This document shows positions 49,389-62,962 of a stretch of DNA of 64,000 nt, in pieces. The notes beneath the pieces are model-generated. The model was not told the origin of the DNA. It did not search any database and saw nothing but the letters and a program-made list of their open reading frames with translations. Each line of letters begins with the position of its first letter. Position 1 is the first letter of the stretch. Made by a program: the position numbers and the translations under genes. Source of the stretch: Methanosarcina acetivorans C2A (GTDB lineage: Archaea > Halobacteriota > Methanosarcinia > Methanosarcinales > Methanosarcinaceae); the NCBI RefSeq assembly GCF_000007345.1, contig NC_003552.1:4774001-4838000 (forward strand), written 5' to 3'.

Positions 49389-49633
49389 ACTGAGTGGTTT
49401 AACAACCTTTCCAGGATTCTTTTGAGAAGACTCGTACAGCCAGATAAGATAAGCTGCATATAGACACAATATGAAAAGGAAAAAATAGAGAACAGGTAAA
49501 ACGCACATGAAATTCCTGAATTACAGGCACAATAAATGAAAGTATGCATGGACTTTCATGCCAAATAAGCTGATCTCAACTTTCATATCAATCTTTTTTG
49601 ATATCCGGCTTTCGGGTTTTTAATAAGTGAATC

Positions 49634-49743
49634 CAATAATTAAATAGAAGAATTAGAGGACTTCATAACCAATTGGAAGAATTTAAAGCTTCCATAATTG
49701 ATTGGAAAAATTTGAGGGCTCCATACTGATTAGAAGAATTTGA
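49634..49743 (+). repeat. Four degenerate 29-bp tandem repeats before regulator 1
   Basis: Four units begin at 49634, 49664, 49693 and 49722, for example CATAACCAATTGGAAGAATT followed by TAAAGCTTC. Words CATAA, TTGG, AGAATT and GCTTC are shared with the 28-bp array upstream of the paralogous regulator at 50843-50953. The remainder of the 49389-49832 gap shows no gene. Confidence 0.75.
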
Positions 49744-49832: not shown

Positions 49833-50630
49833 ATGCCGGGAAATCCGAACGAGATAAAGCTGGTAAATAATGCAATGTCCAACGCCACCCGAAGGAAGAT
49901 AATGAACTTCCTGGAGGCTGGTGAGAAGAGTACGGAGGAAATAGGAGAGGAGATCGGGAAGACAATGCTCGATTTTCATCTCAAGGTTCTGCAGCAGGCG
50001 AGCCTGATAGAGATCGAAGAAGGAACCGTAAAGCTAAGTGAGTATGGCAGAAATTTCCTTAAAGGGAAGGAAGACAAAGGCGAGGAGAAAAATGCAGACC
50101 TCTCACAGGCAAAGCCGGTCGAGATTGCTGAGGTCAGACAGCTTTTGCCCTGCATAGCTGACTCTTCAAAGTTCAGGGTAATCGCAAATATGGCTCCTCC
50201 TCTGGGAGGAACCCTGAAGGTTCTTGAGCCCCTCTTTCCCAGAGCCAGATATTCGGACAGAATAAGTGCTCTGATAACGCAAAAAGGAGAAATTATTACT
50301 ACTATTTACGGCACCGGAAAAGTCACCATGACGATGATTAAAAACGAGGATGAAGCCAGAGAGGCCCTTGAGAACCTCAGGGATATTATCAATGAAGCAA
50401 TAGCAAAAGGTGTAGCCCCGGTTCCCAGAGAAAAAGTCAGGGTCGAACCCATGGAGATCTACAAATACCTGCCTCAGACCAACTGCGGGAAGTGCGGTGA
50501 GCAGAGCTGTTACACCTTTGCCATAAAGCTCATGAGTGGGGAAACAAACCTGGAAAAGTGCATGCCTCTCAAAGAACCAGGCTATGCAACCAACCTCGAA
50601 CACCTTCAGGTTCTGAGTGCATATATTTGA
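49833..50630 (+). CDS. HTH / TBP-like / 4Fe-4S putative redox regulator, copy 1
   Basis: This 265-residue protein has an ArsR/MarR-like winged helix (about 12-80: ATRRKIMNFLEAGEKSTEEIGEEIGKTMLDFHLKVLQQASLI). A domain at about 110-205 contains YGTGKVTMTMIKNEDEAREAL, resembling a half-repeat of TATA-binding protein. A C-terminal 4Fe-4S module (about 222-256: YLPQTNCGKCGEQSC...C) is of the corrinoid iron-sulfur protein type. ATG 49833 is chosen because AGGTGG precedes it and its paralogue starts at the same residue. A DNA-binding redox or Fe-S sensor is the likely role. Confidence 0.8.
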   Translation: MPGNPNEIKLVNNAMSNATRRKIMNFLEAGEKSTEEIGEEIGKTMLDFHLKVLQQASLIEIEEGTVKLSEYGRNFLKGKEDKGEEKNADLSQAKPVEIAEVRQLLPCIADSSKFRVIANMAPPLGGTLKVLEPLFPRARYSDRISALITQKGEIITTIYGTGKVTMTMIKNEDEAREALENLRDIINEAIAKGVAPVPREKVRVEPMEIYKYLPQTNCGKCGEQSCYTFAIKLMSGETNLEKCMPLKEPGYATNLEHLQVLSAYI

Positions 50631-50685
50631 GTTACAGGTACCTGAACTGCAGTTACTTGAAAAATACCACCTTAACCGAGGTTCT

Positions 50686-50760
50686 TTGAATACATTAACC
50701 ATAGTGCTGACCGGCAGTCCTTATATTCCAAGTACGCTAAAATTACCTGAAAATTTATTC
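50686..50760 (+). pseudogene. DsrE remnant after regulator copy 1
   Basis: TTG 50686 opens a frame reading NTLTIVLTGSPYI, nearly the same as the start of the intact DsrE at 51801 (KTLTIVLTGGPYIS). One base is lost after codon 14, so the match continues in another frame (AGTACGCTAAAATTACCT against AATACGCTGAAATTGCCT) and then fades. It shows that the regulator and dsrE were duplicated together. Confidence 0.8.
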
Positions 50761-50842
50761 TGTTTTATCGGTGCAGGCAAATTTAATTCAGGGATTGTGG
50801 AGGCAGGGACTGGAGCGAAGCCTGTGAATTGTATGCCATAAT

Positions 50843-50953
50843 AAGAGGTTGCTGGCAGAAATAGCTTCATAAGAGGTTGCTGGCAGAAATAGCTTCATAA
50901 GAGGTTGCTAGCAGAAATAGCTTCATAAGAGGTTGCTAGCAGAAATAGCTTCA
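50843..50953 (+). repeat. Four 28-bp tandem repeats before regulator 2
   Basis: Four copies of AAGAGGTTGCTGGCAGAAAT plus AGCTTCAT start at 50843, 50871, 50899 and 50927. Copies 1-2 have CTGGC and copies 3-4 CTAGC; the last ends in CAG just before the ribosome-binding site AGGTG. The repeats lie directly in the leader or promoter of regulator 2. Confidence 0.95.
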
Positions 50954-50966
50954 GCAGGTGTTAAAG

Positions 50967-51764
50967 GTGTCGGAAAACCCGAATGAGACAAAACTCGTAA
51001 ATTTTGCTATGGCCAACGGTACCAGGAGGAAGATAATTAACTTCCTGGCAAACGGCTGTAGAAGTACCGGGGAAATAGGAGAGATAATCGGGAAGGAAAC
51101 ACTTGACTTTCACCTCAGGATTTTGCAACAGGCAGGCCTGATTGAATTAGAAGAAGAAACTGTGAAGCTAAGCGAATATGGCAAGAGTTTCCTTAAGAAT
51201 AAAACAGAAAAGGTTGAGGAGAAAACTGTAGAATTCTCTCAGGCAAAACCAATAGAGATTGCAAGGATCAGACAGCTTTCGCCCTGTATGGCCGATTCCT
51301 CAAGACTCAGAGTGAGTGCGAATATGACTCCACCGCTGGGTGGAATCTTGAAACTCCTTGAGCCCCTCTTTCCCAGAAGTAATTATTCGGATAGAAAAGA
51401 CAGCCTGATAATTCAAAAGGGAGAAATTATCATAACTATTTACGGTAGTGGAAAAGTTTCTATCAGGATGATTAAAAACGAGAATGAAGCTAAAGAAGAA
51501 CTTGAAAGCCTGAAGAGCATTATCAATGAAGCTATTGCAAAAGGTGTAGCTCCAGCCCCCAGGGAAAAGGTAAAAGTCGATCTCACTGAGGTGTACAAAT
51601 ACCTGCCCCAGACCAACTGTGGCAAGTGCGGCGAACAGGGGTGTTACAGCTTTGCCATCAAGCTTATGGCCAGACAGGTAGCTCTGGACAGGTGTACACT
51701 CCTTAAAGAACCGGAATACACAGGTAATCAGGAGCGTCTACAGGTTTTGGCCGATTACATCTAA
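50967..51764 (+). CDS. HTH / TBP-like / 4Fe-4S putative redox regulator, copy 2
   Basis: This 265-residue paralogue of the gene at 49833 has the same three parts: winged helix (GTRRKIINFLANGCRSTGEIGEIIGKETLDFHL), TBP-like YGSGKVSIRMIKNENEAKEEL, and YLPQTNCGKCGEQGC...C. It begins at GTG 50967 behind AGGTG; GTG 50958 is in frame. It has an extra Cys in the wing region (NGCRS). It is followed 36 bp later by dsrE, so it probably belongs to, or controls, the sulfur-relay operon. Confidence 0.8.
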   Translation: MSENPNETKLVNFAMANGTRRKIINFLANGCRSTGEIGEIIGKETLDFHLRILQQAGLIELEEETVKLSEYGKSFLKNKTEKVEEKTVEFSQAKPIEIARIRQLSPCMADSSRLRVSANMTPPLGGILKLLEPLFPRSNYSDRKDSLIIQKGEIIITIYGSGKVSIRMIKNENEAKEELESLKSIINEAIAKGVAPAPREKVKVDLTEVYKYLPQTNCGKCGEQGCYSFAIKLMARQVALDRCTLLKEPEYTGNQERLQVLADYI

Positions 51765-51800
51765 ACCCTAATAATAAACATTATTTATTTGGAGGAAATT

Positions 51801-52181
51801 TTGAAGACGCTGACCATAGTGCTTACTGGTGGCCCTTATATATCCGAATACGCTGAAATTGCCTTCAAACTTGCTGAAGAAGCGCTTAAACAATATCAGG
51901 TGAACATATTCCTGTACCTGGACGCGGTGCACATCCCCAAAAAAGGCCAGAAACCTTCCTTTTTTACTAACGCAGGCGAACTTTTCATCGGACTCGCAGA
52001 GAAAGGGGCTGTAATCAGAGCATGTGCCCGATGTGCCGCTGCAAGAGGCTATATTGCAGAAGAAGGCCTTGAGAACGAAAGTAACTGCAGAGACTACATT
52101 CCCGGAATAAAAATCTCCAGTCTTTATGAACTCTCTGAAATGCTGAGCAAGAGTGATAGAGTAATCTCACTGTCAAGATAA
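51801..52181 (+). CDS. DsrE/TusD-like sulfurtransferase subunit
   Basis: This protein of about 126 residues has the DsrE fold signature TLTIVLTGGPYISEYAEIAFKLAEEAL, LYLDAVHIPKKGQ and the Cys-bearing IRACARCAAARGY (about 75-87), where DsrE/TusD carries the persulfide Cys. It starts at TTG 51801 with GGAGG 5 bp upstream. DsrE, DsrF and DsrH form a hexamer that relays sulfane sulfur. In Methanosarcina the acceptor is unknown; tRNA thiolation or Fe-S/thio-cofactor assembly are options. Confidence 0.85.
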   Translation: MKTLTIVLTGGPYISEYAEIAFKLAEEALKQYQVNIFLYLDAVHIPKKGQKPSFFTNAGELFIGLAEKGAVIRACARCAAARGYIAEEGLENESNCRDYIPGIKISSLYELSEMLSKSDRVISLSR

Positions 52182-52220
52182 ACTCACCGAAACGAGGTTT
52201 GAACAAACGAGGTTTAAACG

Positions 52221-52565
52221 ATGGAATCAGTTTTCTATCTGCTGGATGCCGCCCCATACGGCAGTGAAAAAGCCTTTGGAGCATTGAATGCGGCTGCTGT
52301 GAGCCTTGACAGGATGGATGTGACTCTTGGCCTTTACGGAGACGGGGTTTATCTTGTAACTGCTGGGCAGGACAGCACAGAACTTGGTTTGCCGAACCTT
52401 TCGGATATTCTCTATTCGTATGGAGAGTTAAAAGTACTTGTGCACGAACCCTCACTGGTTGAGAGGGGACTTTTTGAGGAAACCCTGATAGAGACCATCG
52501 AACTTGCCGATGAAGAGGACTTTCTCGAAGCAATGGAAAACTCGGACTGTGTGATCTTATTTTAA
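52221..52565 (+). CDS. DsrF/TusC-like sulfurtransferase subunit
   Basis: This 114-residue member of the DsrE superfamily begins MESVFYLLDAAPYGSEKAFGALNAA with VTLGLYGDGVYLVTAGQ, the DsrF/TusC pattern. It has one Cys near the C-terminus (NSDCVILF). It lies 39 bp after dsrE and is the middle gene of a dsrEFH set. Confidence 0.85.
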   Translation: MESVFYLLDAAPYGSEKAFGALNAAAVSLDRMDVTLGLYGDGVYLVTAGQDSTELGLPNLSDILYSYGELKVLVHEPSLVERGLFEETLIETIELADEEDFLEAMENSDCVILF

Positions 52566-52642
52566 AGAAGTGACTCATTAAAAATCGACATCTATCGACA
52601 GGGAAAACAGGGGTTTGCTTAAGTATAGACGGGAGCAATAAT

Positions 52643-52942
52643 ATGAAACGAGAAGAACATGATGTATTCCTGCTGACAAAACCTCCTTTCAGTACACGAT
52701 CGGAGCTGTGCCTCAAATTGGCTGCTCGCTCAGGAAATGCCAGGCTCTACCTTGCAGGAGACGGAGTATATCACCTGCTTTCAGGAATACAGGAGTTGCC
52801 AGGGTGCACAGTTTACGCCTGTCAGGAAGACCTCGAAGCCAGAGCAATAAAAGGGAGAAGAAAAATTACAGTTCCGGAGAACTTTTATGCGGCTTTTATC
52901 GAGGATCTGATGGAACACTGCAGGCAGGCATATACTTTTTAA
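52643..52942 (+). CDS. DsrH/TusB-like sulfurtransferase subunit
   Basis: This 99-residue protein has the DsrH/TusB pattern DVFLLTKPPFSTRSELCLKLA, ARLYLAGDGVYHLLSG and VYACQEDLEARAI, the last with the conserved Cys. It completes DsrEFH. It starts 77 bp after dsrF behind GGGAGCAATA. Confidence 0.85.
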   Translation: MKREEHDVFLLTKPPFSTRSELCLKLAARSGNARLYLAGDGVYHLLSGIQELPGCTVYACQEDLEARAIKGRRKITVPENFYAAFIEDLMEHCRQAYTF

Positions 52943-53094: not shown

Positions 53095-53379
53095 ATGGCT
53101 GAAAAGCTCCCACGTGAGGTTATCGAGGAGTTGGAACGGGTGAGCCGGCTGCACGAGCAGGCAGTCTGCGACCACGAAAAATGCAGGGAATTTAGCGAAA
53201 ACCTGTCCGACGTTCTGGTCAGGCTCGAAGATATGAAATTTTATAAGACCGCGGACAAACTGATGAGCGTCCTCATAAACTGCAAACCAAAAGAAGCGTC
53301 TCACTGCGAAAAAGCAACGATGGTCGGGGAAATGATTAAAAACGTGGCAAAAGAGGCGAAAAAAGAAGCGGGGAAATAA
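53095..53379 (+). CDS. Small helical Cys-containing protein, unknown
   Basis: This 94-residue protein, rich in Glu/Lys with three or four predicted helices, has CDHEKC (about 24-29) and two further Cys. TATA-like AATAATATAAG lies 30 bp before the start. It sits 150 bp after dsrH in the same direction, just before a decayed permease. The Cys spacing suggests metal or Fe-S binding, but no family is recognised. Confidence 0.6.
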   Translation: MAEKLPREVIEELERVSRLHEQAVCDHEKCREFSENLSDVLVRLEDMKFYKTADKLMSVLINCKPKEASHCEKATMVGEMIKNVAKEAKKEAGK

Positions 53380-57441: not shown

Positions 57442-57837
57442 ATGTATACAATTCTATTAATAGGCATAGGTGGTTTTATAGGCGCCGTCCTGAGATATTC
57501 CTTAAGTGGGTGGGTGCAGAACAGTTTTGTTAATTTTCCGTTAGGTACTTTGGTTGTAAACATCGTGGGGAGTTTCTTTTTAGGTTTGGTCATGTATCTT
57601 TCTGAATACCAAGGACTGTTTAGCGAAGAAACAAGAATACTCCTGACAATCGGTTTGCTAGGTGCCTTTACAACATTATCAACATTTAGTTACGAATCAT
57701 TCAGATTATTAGAAAGTTCAAAATTAATGCAATTAACAATGAATATAGTGGCAACGGTATTATTTTCCATATTTGCAGTATATTTAGGAAAGATTTCAGC
57801 CTTGAATTTAGCCGCATACCTGAGGGGGATTAAATGA
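57442..57837 (+). CDS. crcB: Fluoride exporter CrcB/Fluc
   Basis: This 131-residue protein has four transmembrane helices and the Fluc signatures GGFIGAVLRYSLS, FPLGTLVVNIVGSFFLG and GLLGAFTTLSTFSYE. It forms a dual-topology dimeric channel that lets fluoride out of the cell. It follows a fluoride riboswitch and overlaps the DUF190 gene by 4 bp (ATGA), so these form one operon. Confidence 0.95.
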   Translation: MYTILLIGIGGFIGAVLRYSLSGWVQNSFVNFPLGTLVVNIVGSFFLGLVMYLSEYQGLFSEETRILLTIGLLGAFTTLSTFSYESFRLLESSKLMQLTMNIVATVLFSIFAVYLGKISALNLAAYLRGIK

Positions 57838-58163
57838 AAAAAGAGTCGTCAGCAATACTACTGAGGATATTCATAGGAGAGTCTGATAAACACAAAGGCA
57901 AGCCGCTATATATGCATATAGTTGAGATGCTTAAAGAAGAAGGAATAGCAGGAGCAACTGTTTTTAGAGGAATTACAGGTTTTGGGAAACAGAGCTACAT
58001 TCATACGACCTCTATACTTCGCTTATCAACCGACCTGCCAATACTCATTGAAGTTGCTGATACAGAAGAAAATATTGCTAAGATCAGGCCGAAGTTAGAC
58101 GAAATAATTACCGAGGGTTTGGTTACAGAAGAAAAGGTAAAAATTGTGTTTTATGGATCTTGA
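57834..58163 (+). CDS. DUF190 family protein, partner of CrcB
   Basis: This 109-residue cytoplasmic protein of the DUF190 family has a PII-like ferredoxin fold, with AILLRIFIGESDKHKGKPLYMHIVEML, GATVFRGITGFG and LPILIEVADTEE. DUF190 proteins are commonly encoded with crcB. A regulatory or sensing role at the channel is inference from the fold and linkage. ATGA overlap with crcB. Confidence 0.92.
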   Translation: MKKESSAILLRIFIGESDKHKGKPLYMHIVEMLKEEGIAGATVFRGITGFGKQSYIHTTSILRLSTDLPILIEVADTEENIAKIRPKLDEIITEGLVTEEKVKIVFYGS

Positions 58164-58825: not shown

Positions 58826-58845
58826 ATTTCAAATATATTTGAAAT
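58826..58845 (+). promoter_or_regulatory. Operator 1 of the permease operon
   Basis: ATTTCAAATATATTTGAAAT is a perfect 20-bp palindrome just upstream of the TATA box (TTTTATATAGG at about 58852). A second copy of the core TTTCAAAT-AG-ATTTGAAA lies on the other side of the TATA box. ArsR-type repressors bind such sites. Confidence 0.75.
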
Positions 58846-58921: not shown

Positions 58922-59974
58922 ATGACTCTTGATTATCTCACTTATCTCATATCAGTAGGGCTTCAGTCCGTGCAGGAGTACCTGGCGCTCCATGTGCTGA
59001 TGTGCCTTGTACCGGCCTTTTTTCTGGCTGGTGCGATTGCCTCCCTCTTTTCCAAGGAATCGGTGTTGAAGTTCTTCGGAGCGGATGCCCCCAAATATGT
59101 CTCTTATACGGTAGCTGCGGTTTCAGGTTGCTTACTTGCGGTCTGCAGCTGCACGGTCCTTCCCCTTTTTGCAGGAATTTACAAGCGAGGAGCAGGTATA
59201 GGCCCTGCAACCACATTTTTGTTTTCGGCCCCTGCAATCAATATCCTTGCAATTGTCTACACTGCAAAGATCCTGGGATATGACCTGGGAGCAGCACGGG
59301 CTTTTGCAGCAGTGACCCTTTCCGTACTTGTGGGCATAATAATGTCTCTTGCCTATGAAAGGAAAGACACGGAAAGAAAGCCCATAAAAACCTTCGGAGA
59401 AGCAGAGCACAAACACAGCGTTCAACTTTTCGTCCTGCTCATCGTCGTCCTCATAGCCCCAGAATTGATGTCCTCCTGGGGCTGGAAGTACACGTTCCAG
59501 ATACTTGCCTGGGCTCCCCTGATCGGACTTACTGCATATCTCTCATACAGGTGGTTCTCAAAAGAAGAGATCAACAGCTGGATGGGAGAAACCTGGTTCC
59601 TGATAAAGCAAATTACCCCCCTGCTCCTGCTGGGAGTGTTCTTCGCAGGGATTGCGGTCGTTGTGCTCCCCAAAGAGTATGTAGCAGCTTTTGTGGGCGG
59701 AAATTCTCTGACTTCAAACTTCATCTCTTCCATAGCAGGAGCCCTTATGTATTTCTCAACCCTCACGGAAGTGCCAATCATCAAAGCCCTGACCTTGCTC
59801 GGAATGGGGGCAGGCCCTTCCCTTGCCATGCTCCTTGCAGGCCCTGCACTCAGCCTTCCTAACATGATCGTGATCAACAGGATAATGGGCGTAAAAAAAG
59901 GCATGACTTACATCTGCCTTGTAGTTTTGATTGCAACCTTTTCAGGCTACGTTTTCGGGAGCATGTTCGCATGA
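58922..59974 (+). CDS. PF03773 (ArsP/DUF318)-type permease
   Basis: This 350-residue membrane protein has about eight to ten transmembrane segments. The family motif is visible as AVCSCTVLPLFAGIYKRGAGIGPATTFLFSAPAIN, with CSC inside the membrane, and the second half has STLTEVPIIKALTLLGMGAGPSLAMLLAGPALSLPNM. Some members export trivalent organoarsenicals (ArsP); others are of unknown substrate. It is followed 111 bp later by a thioredoxin-like gene. A C-terminal remnant of a further copy lies at 53421. Confidence 0.88.
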   Translation: MTLDYLTYLISVGLQSVQEYLALHVLMCLVPAFFLAGAIASLFSKESVLKFFGADAPKYVSYTVAAVSGCLLAVCSCTVLPLFAGIYKRGAGIGPATTFLFSAPAINILAIVYTAKILGYDLGAARAFAAVTLSVLVGIIMSLAYERKDTERKPIKTFGEAEHKHSVQLFVLLIVVLIAPELMSSWGWKYTFQILAWAPLIGLTAYLSYRWFSKEEINSWMGETWFLIKQITPLLLLGVFFAGIAVVVLPKEYVAAFVGGNSLTSNFISSIAGALMYFSTLTEVPIIKALTLLGMGAGPSLAMLLAGPALSLPNMIVINRIMGVKKGMTYICLVVLIATFSGYVFGSMFA

Positions 59975-61002: not shown

Positions 61003-61024
61003 CATATCATTATTCATTGATATG
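61003..61024 (+). promoter_or_regulatory. Operator at the arsR start codon
   Basis: CATATCA-TTATTCAT-TGATATG has perfect 7-bp arms and overlaps the ATG of the ArsR gene; the TATA box ACTATATATCC lies just upstream. It fits autoregulation. Confidence 0.65.
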
Positions 61025-61282
61025 AGCGATGAAGAAAACGTACAGCTCTTCAAAGCCTTAAGTGAAGAAACGCGGTACAAAATCATCAAGGTCCTGCTTA
61101 AAGGGGAGCGATGCGCCTGTGAGATTCCTGACCTCATAGGCAAGACCCAGTCCAACACCTCGATGCACCTGGCAAAACTGCAGGATTGGGGCATCATTAA
61201 GGTCAGAAAGGACGGAAAAATGAGGCTTTATTCCATAGATAATGAAAAAATCCGGGAAATTATGAAAATAGTAGAAGAATAA
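61022..61282 (+). CDS. ArsR/SmtB-family transcription regulator
   Basis: This 86-residue winged-helix repressor has FKALSEETRYKIIKVLLKGERCACEIPDLIGKTQSNTSMHLAKL. The CxC in ERCACEIP is at the place of the thiol metal site (CVCDL) of ArsR, where As(III)/Sb(III) or similar soft ions bind and release the DNA. Recognition helix SNTSMHLAKLQ and wing KVRKDGKMRLYSI follow. It lies between two permease units with similar palindromes and probably controls both. Confidence 0.93.
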   Translation: MSDEENVQLFKALSEETRYKIIKVLLKGERCACEIPDLIGKTQSNTSMHLAKLQDWGIIKVRKDGKMRLYSIDNEKIREIMKIVEE

Positions 61283-61712: not shown

Positions 61713-61911
61713 TTTAAAACCTCAGTTAAAATTTTCTCCCAGCTTACTGTGAAAGTCCTTTTTTGTATTCAGAATATACGGAATATATAGAATAAGATAT
61801 TGAACCCGACCTATTTTGAGATTTTGCTGTGATAAGAGATTCGGGTCCTGACTCAAGTATTTTCATAAAAAGCTTCATCAAAGCGACAGGTTTATATCAA
61901 AAAAACAATAT

Positions 61912-61927
61912 ATCAATATATATTGAT
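61912..61927 (+). promoter_or_regulatory. Operator of the second permease operon
   Basis: ATCAATATATATTGAT is a perfect 16-bp palindrome 64 bp before the permease start; a TATA-like TTTATATC lies 20 bp upstream of it. Its core TCAATATATATTGA differs at two positions from TCAAATATATTTGA in the 58922 promoter. Confidence 0.7.
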
Positions 61928-61990
61928 TCAATTGGATGAGAACTGAGTATCCAAAACGAGCAAAAATAAACAGAAAGGAAGGAACTTAAA

Positions 61991-62962
61991 ATGGCTGATA
62001 TCTTTTATCCTCTGCAATGGATTGCAGACAAACTGACATACGAGGTTTTCGGGATTGCACCGACTACTCACCTTGCAGCCAGTGTCAACTTCATCATATA
62101 TGACGTGTTAAAAATCTTCGTCCTGCTTTCCGTGATGATTTTTGCGATCTCCTACCTCAGGACTTATATCACCCCGGAAAAAACCAGAAAGGTGCTCGGG
62201 GGAAAGAAAGGACTTCGCTACCACCTGATAGCTTCTCTGATAGGAACGGTTTCTCCGTTCTGTTCATGTTCCTCAGTGCCCCTCTTTATCGGGTTTGTGG
62301 AGGCAGGGGTTCCTCTTGGAGTAACTTTTTCCTTCCTGATTACCTCCCCTCTGGTAAACGAAGCAGCCGTAGCCGTCCTCTGGGCAACCCTTGGCTTGAA
62401 AGCAACTGTAATTTATGTCGTTTCGGGGATTGTACTCGGAGTATTCGGAGGCTATATGATCGGCTTCCTGAAGCTTGAAAGATATGTTGAAGAATTCGTC
62501 TACAAAATAAAAGTCGGAAAACAGGCATCCGAACAAGAAAAAATGACTGTGAAAGAGAGAGCCAGAACTGCTTTCGAAGGTGTTAAAGACATCGTAGGAA
62601 GGGTCTGGATTTACGTGATAATAGGAGTCAGCATTGGGGGTATCTTCCACGGGTATGCTCCGGAAGGCATCCTCGAAAAATACGCAGGGAAGGACAATTT
62701 GCTTGCAGTTCCGTTTGCCGTCCTTATCGGGGTCCCCCTGTACTCAAACGTCATGGGCATGATCCCCATTATGGAAAGCCTGATTGGAAAGGGGCTCCCC
62801 ATAGGAACCTCGCTGGCCTTCCTCATGTCGGTCACAGCCGTATCTTTGCCTGAAATGGTTATCCTCAAAAAGGTGCTGAAGAAGGAGTTGATTGCAATCT
62901 TTGTTTCAATTGTGGCGCTTTCGATCATCTTTACGGGATACATGTTTAACATACTGCTGTAA
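61991..62962 (+). CDS. PF03773 (ArsP/DUF318)-type permease, second
   Basis: This 323-residue permease is distantly paralogous to the one at 58922. The membrane motif is GTVSPFCSCSSVPLFIGFVEAGVPLGVTFSFLITSPLVNEAA, with CSCSS, and the second half has LYSNVMGMIPIMESLIGKGLPIGTSLAF. A charged cytoplasmic loop lies at about 160-195. The start ATG follows AAGGAAGGA. It is followed by its own thioredoxin-like gene 107 bp later. Substrate unknown; metalloid export is a guess from ArsR linkage. Confidence 0.9.
   Translation: MADIFYPLQWIADKLTYEVFGIAPTTHLAASVNFIIYDVLKIFVLLSVMIFAISYLRTYITPEKTRKVLGGKKGLRYHLIASLIGTVSPFCSCSSVPLFIGFVEAGVPLGVTFSFLITSPLVNEAAVAVLWATLGLKATVIYVVSGIVLGVFGGYMIGFLKLERYVEEFVYKIKVGKQASEQEKMTVKERARTAFEGVKDIVGRVWIYVIIGVSIGGIFHGYAPEGILEKYAGKDNLLAVPFAVLIGVPLYSNVMGMIPIMESLIGKGLPIGTSLAFLMSVTAVSLPEMVILKKVLKKELIAIFVSIVALSIIFTGYMFNILL

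Follow-up and report, generated by a model that had tools for sequence, protein, structure and literature searches.

Within the 64,000-nt window of the Methanosarcina acetivorans genome that we analyzed, two paralogs, here termed R1 and R2 (69% identity; collectively, R), precede the genes dsrE, dsrF, and dsrH (Table 1). A sequence-only reading of this DNA had placed two 265-residue proteins here, each composed of a winged helix, a domain resembling the TATA-binding protein (TBP), and an Fe-S module, with the three dsr genes following the second protein. Both open reading frames were found at the locus and encode 265 aa each, the domain order was matched by Pfam, AlphaFold2, and Foldseek, and the downstream products matched the DsrE, DsrF, and DsrH/TusB families (Pfam and NCBIfam). 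R2 has an alternative GTG start at 50958, which would yield 268 residues. Three-domain R proteins are conserved at 53 to 91% identity across Methanosarcina, sister genera, and Methanotrichaceae, and the architecture is therefore not a chance arrangement. Searches of an open-access literature collection turned up no account of a protein with this order of domains. HdrR of M. barkeri was considered as a described member and rejected; the accessible portion of its description reports only an N-terminal winged HTH and no TBP or Fe-S domain.

Table 1. Features of the R-dsrEFH locus and copies of the inverted repeat (positions are those of the window)
Feature	Position	Strand	Description
Inverted repeat ATATCAATCTTTTTTGATAT	49585..49604	.	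Candidate ars operator; 228 bp before R1
Degenerate 29-bp tandem repeat	49645..49743	.	×3.4; between inverted repeat and R1
R1	49833..50630	+	265 aa; wHTH/TBP-fold/Fe-S protein (translation, Pfam, predicted structure)
ArsR-type winged helix	49869..50018	+	R1 residues 13-62; PF12840/PF01022; no conserved Cys
Single TBP-fold repeat	50109..50447	+	R1 residues 93-205; PF00352, model, Foldseek
Cys107 codon (LPC motif)	50151..50153	+	Invariant residue of domain family (142/142)
CFeSP-type [4Fe-4S] motif	50448..50570	+	R1 residues 206-246; PF04060; Cys218, Cys221, Cys226, Cys243
28-bp tandem repeat	50841..50953	.	4 copies (98%); between R1 and R2
R2	50967..51764	+	265 aa; R1 paralog; GTG start
dsrE	51801..52181	+	PF02635, TusD model; TTG start, 51789 also possible; Cys75, Cys78 (ACxRC), conserved in alignment
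dsrF	52221..52565	+	PF02635, TusC model; no conserved Cys in alignment
dsrH	52643..52942	+	PF04077, TusB model above cut-off; Cys23, Cys60, conserved in alignment
Repeat copy, 2 mismatches	58826..58845	.	77 bp before ArsP permease 58922-59974
Repeat copy, 1 mismatch	61004..61023	.	Start of ArsR ORF 61022-61282
Repeat copy, 2 mismatches	61910..61929	.	62 bp before ArsP permease 61991-62962

The N-terminal domain of R (helices at residues 18 to 27, 34 to 41, and 46 to 55 in the R1 model) matched HTH_20/HTH_5 at residues 15 to 62, with Pfam scores above the cut-off in R2 and slightly below it in R1. ArsR structures were among the Foldseek matches of the full-length R model, whose winged helix and CFeSP domain both retrieved solved counterparts. 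R resembles the ArsR/SmtB regulators in its winged helix, its ars operon neighbors, and an ArsR-operator-like repeat upstream, but it carries two extra C-terminal domains, and its winged helix lacks a metalloid-binding Cys: no conserved Cys was found in residues 1 to 90 of the family alignment, and the metalloid-binding Cys/His signature of ArsR/SmtB is missing with it. At the other end of the protein, FeS (PF04060) was detected at residues 213 to 245 (E values of 4e-13 and 9e-12 in the two paralogs), and this part matched the N terminus of the corrinoid/iron-sulfur protein (4djd, 3e-7 over a 40-residue match, phmmer; also 2h9a). Its four cysteines are invariant in the aligned R proteins and follow the pattern of the large-subunit [4Fe-4S] domain (CxxCxxxxC-16-C), as expected from the CGKCGEQxC...C module noticed earlier, whereas R has no corrinoid or TIM-barrel part. 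A third Fe-S match in the M. acetivorans genome, at position 780485, was rejected as a relative of R given that ferredoxin motifs lie in the same frame; it was absent from the search with R1 as the query and is presumably RnfB.

The middle domain consists of one TBP repeat and an extra first strand that ends in Leu-Pro-Cys (the PC motif). Pfam detected TBP (PF00352) at residues 149 to 188; the R1 match exceeded the gathering score (E value, 2.7e-5), and that of R2 had an E value of 0.011. TBP was the sole widely recurring Pfam family in this domain (24 of 30 members). An AlphaFold2 model of full-length R, built on 62 relatives, had a mean pLDDT of 81 and a pTM of 0.52, so domain packing is uncertain and the model is no reliable guide to how far Cys107 lies from the cluster motif. 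The 109-aa domain modeled alone (pLDDT, 85; pTM, 0.76) has its strands and its long C-terminal helix arranged in the TBP order. Archaeal and eukaryotic TBPs were the top Foldseek matches for both models, at a modest E value of 2.3e-4 and an rmsd of 2.3 to 3.1 over about 80 columns for the domain-only model, in which RNase HIII ranked next; the N-domain of RNase HIII (PF11858) is a known TBP-like fold. A profile of the middle domain retrieved the M. jannaschii TBP from the PDB at 1.8e-6, and hhalign against five TBPs, with shallow alignments, gave a probability of 15.6%. We base the TBP fold on Pfam and Foldseek, not on hhalign; with TBPs ranking first in the structural comparison, the TBP-like domain of the earlier reading held up.

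The earlier suggestion that this domain touches promoter DNA or TFB fared less well. TBP contacts DNA through an intercalating Phe pair and a minor-groove Asn. In the alignment, Ile144 takes the position of the first Phe and Tyr159 that of the second, and the Asn is not conserved. Two tandem repeats form the TBP saddle, and no second repeat was found by Pfam, in the model, or in the family layouts, which all give one per protein. The domain thus resembles a single repeat of archaeal TBP and the RNase HIII N-domain in fold and shares the SGKV...EEA signature with TBP (SGKV-T being kept), but it differs from archaeal TBP in its extra N-terminal strand, its invariant Cys, and the loss of DNA-contacting residues. 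Given the single repeat and the lost first Phe and Asn, TBP-style promoter binding is unlikely; the invariance of a Cys instead, and the occurrence of the domain without an HTH beside dsrEFH, iscS-iscU, and ars genes, further disfavor such contact.

We then considered the domain as a family. Of the 142 sequences that cover the Cys column of the PC motif, every one has the Cys, and 140 have the Pro. A profile of the domain had matches in 96 of 393 genomes of the phylum, in three layouts: stand-alone (about 95 to 118 aa), with an Fe-S motif (177 to 198 aa), and with a winged helix and an Fe-S motif. A fourth layout is probably represented by the PRK13795 PAPS-reductase-like proteins of methanogens, where matches with weak scores place the domain after the PAPS-reductase domain and ahead of two [4Fe-4S] motifs; these proteins apparently share with R the PC/TBP-like domain followed by Fe-S motifs but have PUA-like and PP-loop enzyme domains in the position of the winged helix. 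No Pfam family was found for the domain beyond sub-threshold TBP matches in stand-alone members, and it is a previously undescribed archaeal family. In one genus of the family to which M. acetivorans belongs (by inference, Methanohalophilus), the stand-alone domain lies 54 to 66 bp after iscS-iscU in six of six genomes. In an ANME-2d-like genome, it is one of a run of genes on a single strand that includes arsP, arsR, and acr3, and in the f11 genomes, the Fe-S form comes after thioredoxin and TauE genes. A structural role could explain Cys107; the contexts as a whole suggest that the TBP-shaped domain handles sulfur through one invariant Cys rather than gripping promoters.

The proposed tie between R and a DsrEFH relay was conserved. 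R lies directly 5′ of dsrEFH, often with overlapping frames, at almost every Methanosarcina and Methanothrix locus. Of the 75 genomes in which DsrF was matched, 70 also carry R (two genome searches read together), although genomes within one genus are related and counts such as these are therefore not independent events. The five DsrF genomes without R comprise three with weak, distant DsrF matches and two incomplete assemblies. An apparent R-DsrF fusion (locus L167) was set aside because it spans an assembly gap (a run of N). In two loci from different families, a TBP-fold/Fe-S protein without the HTH overlaps dsrE by 4 bp (L233) or 8 bp (L062), with dsrF and dsrH next, indicating that DsrEFH pairs with the part of the protein that does not bind DNA. 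Conversely, R is present with dsrEFH not nearby in five Methanolobus-type and related genomes, and six genomes have R without DsrF (only dsrE remnants persist in two Methanolobus-type genomes); R thus does something without the relay as well.

The M. acetivorans set resembles the DsrEFH/TusBCD relay in its three genes, their canonical order, and the retained region around Cys78, the catalytic Cys of DsrE. It differs from relays that work with DsrC/TusE in having no such acceptor, in the adjacent winged-helix TBP-fold Fe-S protein, and in its ars setting. DsrC/TusE (PF04358) was absent from all 14 module-bearing genomes tested, nine of which have TusA, while the E. coli positive control was detected. 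We know of no acceptor for DsrC-less DsrEFH relays in methanogens.

The R-dsrEFH loci lie among arsR, acr3, arsP, arsC, arsM, rhodanese-like, thioredoxin, and AhpD-like genes (named by Pfam for those tested and otherwise by sequence recognition), a setting missed in the sequence-only reading. In 14 Methanothrix loci, acr3 is directly upstream of R, its end falling between −43 and +41 bp from R; arsR and a rhodanese-like gene lie further upstream. The ars genes of M. acetivorans start 6 kb past dsrH and belong to a different operon from R-dsrEFH. Expression of DsrE/F-like genes shifts under arsenite in Thioalkalivibrio (PMC6620896).

An inverted repeat, ATATCAA-N6-TTGATAT (≤1 mismatch), was detected upstream of R at 30 of 31 Methanosarcina-type loci, mostly 116 to 265 bp before the start; it was not found upstream of R itself in Methanothrix loci. 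The exact repeat occurs twice in the 5.75-Mb M. acetivorans genome (control, 0), with one copy ahead of R1 and the other ahead of an AhpD-like gene that lies 2.5 kb beyond the window, and Methanosarcina genomes carry 0 to 5 copies each. In the fetched loci, 36 of the sites lie ahead of R and 17 ahead of arsR alone; others lie before further ars genes, arsP and arsM among them, and before an AhpD-like gene. The reversed control gave 1 match in 1.6 Mb of loci. The spacer is conserved upstream of R, in part through ancestry, while the sites before other ars genes share the arms only. Inverted repeats with other sequences have been described as ArsR operators (PMC12607644). The tandem arrays upstream of R1 and R2 were rejected as operators given that they, unlike the inverted repeat, are not conserved among species: the 29-bp repeat occurred only in close relatives, and the 28-bp repeat was not seen in aligned relatives. 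Judged from gene order and the shared repeat, R-dsrEFH appears to belong to the ars regulon.

Our preferred reading, to which we assign a probability of roughly 45%, is that R is an ars-regulon protein acting as a dedicated Cys/Fe-S partner of DsrEFH and relaying the status of sulfur or of the cluster to transcription. R-dsrEFH would be a sulfur-relay module of the methanogen arsenic regulon, with the TBP-fold and [4Fe-4S] part of R as the DsrEFH partner in place of bacterial DsrC/TusE. Persulfide sulfur on DsrE Cys78 would be passed to, or read out by, Cys107, which would work together with the adjacent [4Fe-4S] cluster that R is predicted to bind. The ArsR-type winged helix would turn this partner into a DNA-binding sensor, with transcription of its own operon, and perhaps of other ars genes, governed by persulfide load or cluster state. 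Arsenite would disturb both, and arsenic may induce the module. A broader version is more tentative and, taken whole, rather doubtful: the TBP-fold domains of this archaeal family may be Cys persulfide carriers beside Fe-S clusters and acceptors for donors of the IscS/DsrEFH type, with the ArsR-winged-helix fusion of Methanosarcina and Methanothrix replacing DsrC/TusE and linking the relay to arsenic stress.

The most serious alternative, though an unlikely one, is that R is simply a one-component transcription regulator, with its cluster as the sensor of Fe-S or sulfur status and dsrEFH as its target, the TBP fold serving only as a dimerization or ligand domain. This amounts to the sequence-only reading minus the contact between the TBP-like domain and DNA. 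The conserved residues of the ArsR-type winged helix, the invariant cluster cysteines, and the position of R at the operon head are all consistent with it, but the TBP-fold/Fe-S part is coupled to dsrEFH even without the HTH, and the lone domain occurs in iscSU and ars operons, which is not required of a mere sensor domain. It is less probable again that R is an arsenite-responsive repressor that binds ATATCAA-N6-TTGATAT and is relieved by As(III) on Cys107 or by As(III) displacing the cluster. The winged helix, the arsenic context, and the operator-like repeat fit such a repressor; however, the winged helix has no conserved Cys, and only one conserved Cys lies outside the cluster. The same repeat also precedes canonical arsR genes and occurs in exact form in two genomes (G151 and G177, both incomplete assemblies) that yielded no full-length R, so canonical ArsR can explain it.

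We give little weight to an enzymatic module in which R, DsrEFH, and the rhodanese would convert arsenite by thiolation into thioarsenic species that Acr3/ArsP export: the Methanothrix order arsR-rhodanese-like-acr3-R-dsrEFH would suit it, but the proteins have no catalytic domain for arsenic, and, counting against it as well, we know of no arsenite-thiolating enzyme of this kind for comparison. Least of all do we expect R to be an alternative initiation factor whose TBP-like domain binds TATA-like DNA or TFB, as the TBP fold, the kept SGKV-T signature, and Tyr159 at the second Phe might suggest, in view of the single repeat, the change of the first Phe to Ile144, the lost Asn, the presence of Arg instead of Thr in roughly one-third of the family, and the frequency of the domain in non-DNA contexts.

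With R as the putative partner of DsrEFH, the locus provides a candidate acceptor for the relay, a predicted reactive residue (Cys107), and a predicted regulon motif, all in a genetically tractable host. If this reading is true, the fold of a core transcription factor would have been put to sulfur or Fe-S chemistry.

Four copies of a 28-bp unit (98% identity) lie between the genes for R1 and R2, the paralogous winged helix/TBP-fold/Fe-S proteins; this array was not seen in the relatives aligned and is seemingly recent. The gene after dsrH encodes a 94-aa protein for which a Pfam search returned no family above the cutoff, and relatives of this protein occur near dsrEFH at about 20 Methanosarcina-type loci. 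Elsewhere in the window, a CrcB fluoride channel gene is followed by a DUF190 gene in an overlapping frame.

The PC/TBP-like domain also occurs as a stand-alone protein. In all six genomes of one genus (L222 and L265 to L269), the gene for this protein comes third in an operon, after iscS and iscU. In an ANME-2d-like genome (L220), arsP, a gene for a small CC protein, arsR, and acr3 are arranged on one strand in a series that includes a gene for the stand-alone domain. A subset of stand-alone domains carries a second Cys (CSE-LG motif) at a position that is Tyr in the others, which makes a Cys pair possible.

The M. acetivorans genome contains two homologs of PRK13795 (PAPS-reductase-like proteins): one is intact, and the other is apparently split into two overlapping frames, which appears to reflect a frameshift or sequencing error.

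Coordinates of features (L, loci of relatives; G, genomes [G000, M. acetivorans]; C, contig)
Feature	Location	Strand
28-bp repeat array	window 50841-50953	
94-aa protein gene	window 53095-53379	
crcB-DUF190	window 57442-58163	
Stand-alone, CSE-LG, iscS-iscU operon	L222 4592-4876	
Stand-alone, CSE-LG	L224 4644-4946	
Stand-alone, CSE-LG	L225 4456-4809	
arsP-acr3 series	L220 2890-7153	
Split PRK13795 homolog	G000:C1 4943655-4945352 and 4945337-4945555	minus
Intact PRK13795 paralog	G000:C1 3613665-3615641	
dsrE (and dsrF) remnants	G120:C1 232534-232620	
dsrE (and dsrF) remnants	G117:C31 161036-161650	

Remnants of dsrE (and dsrF) were observed downstream of the R-type gene, which is intact in G120 and truncated in G117, in two Methanolobus-type genomes. 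In these two genomes, R persists while the DsrEFH relay is apparently in decay.
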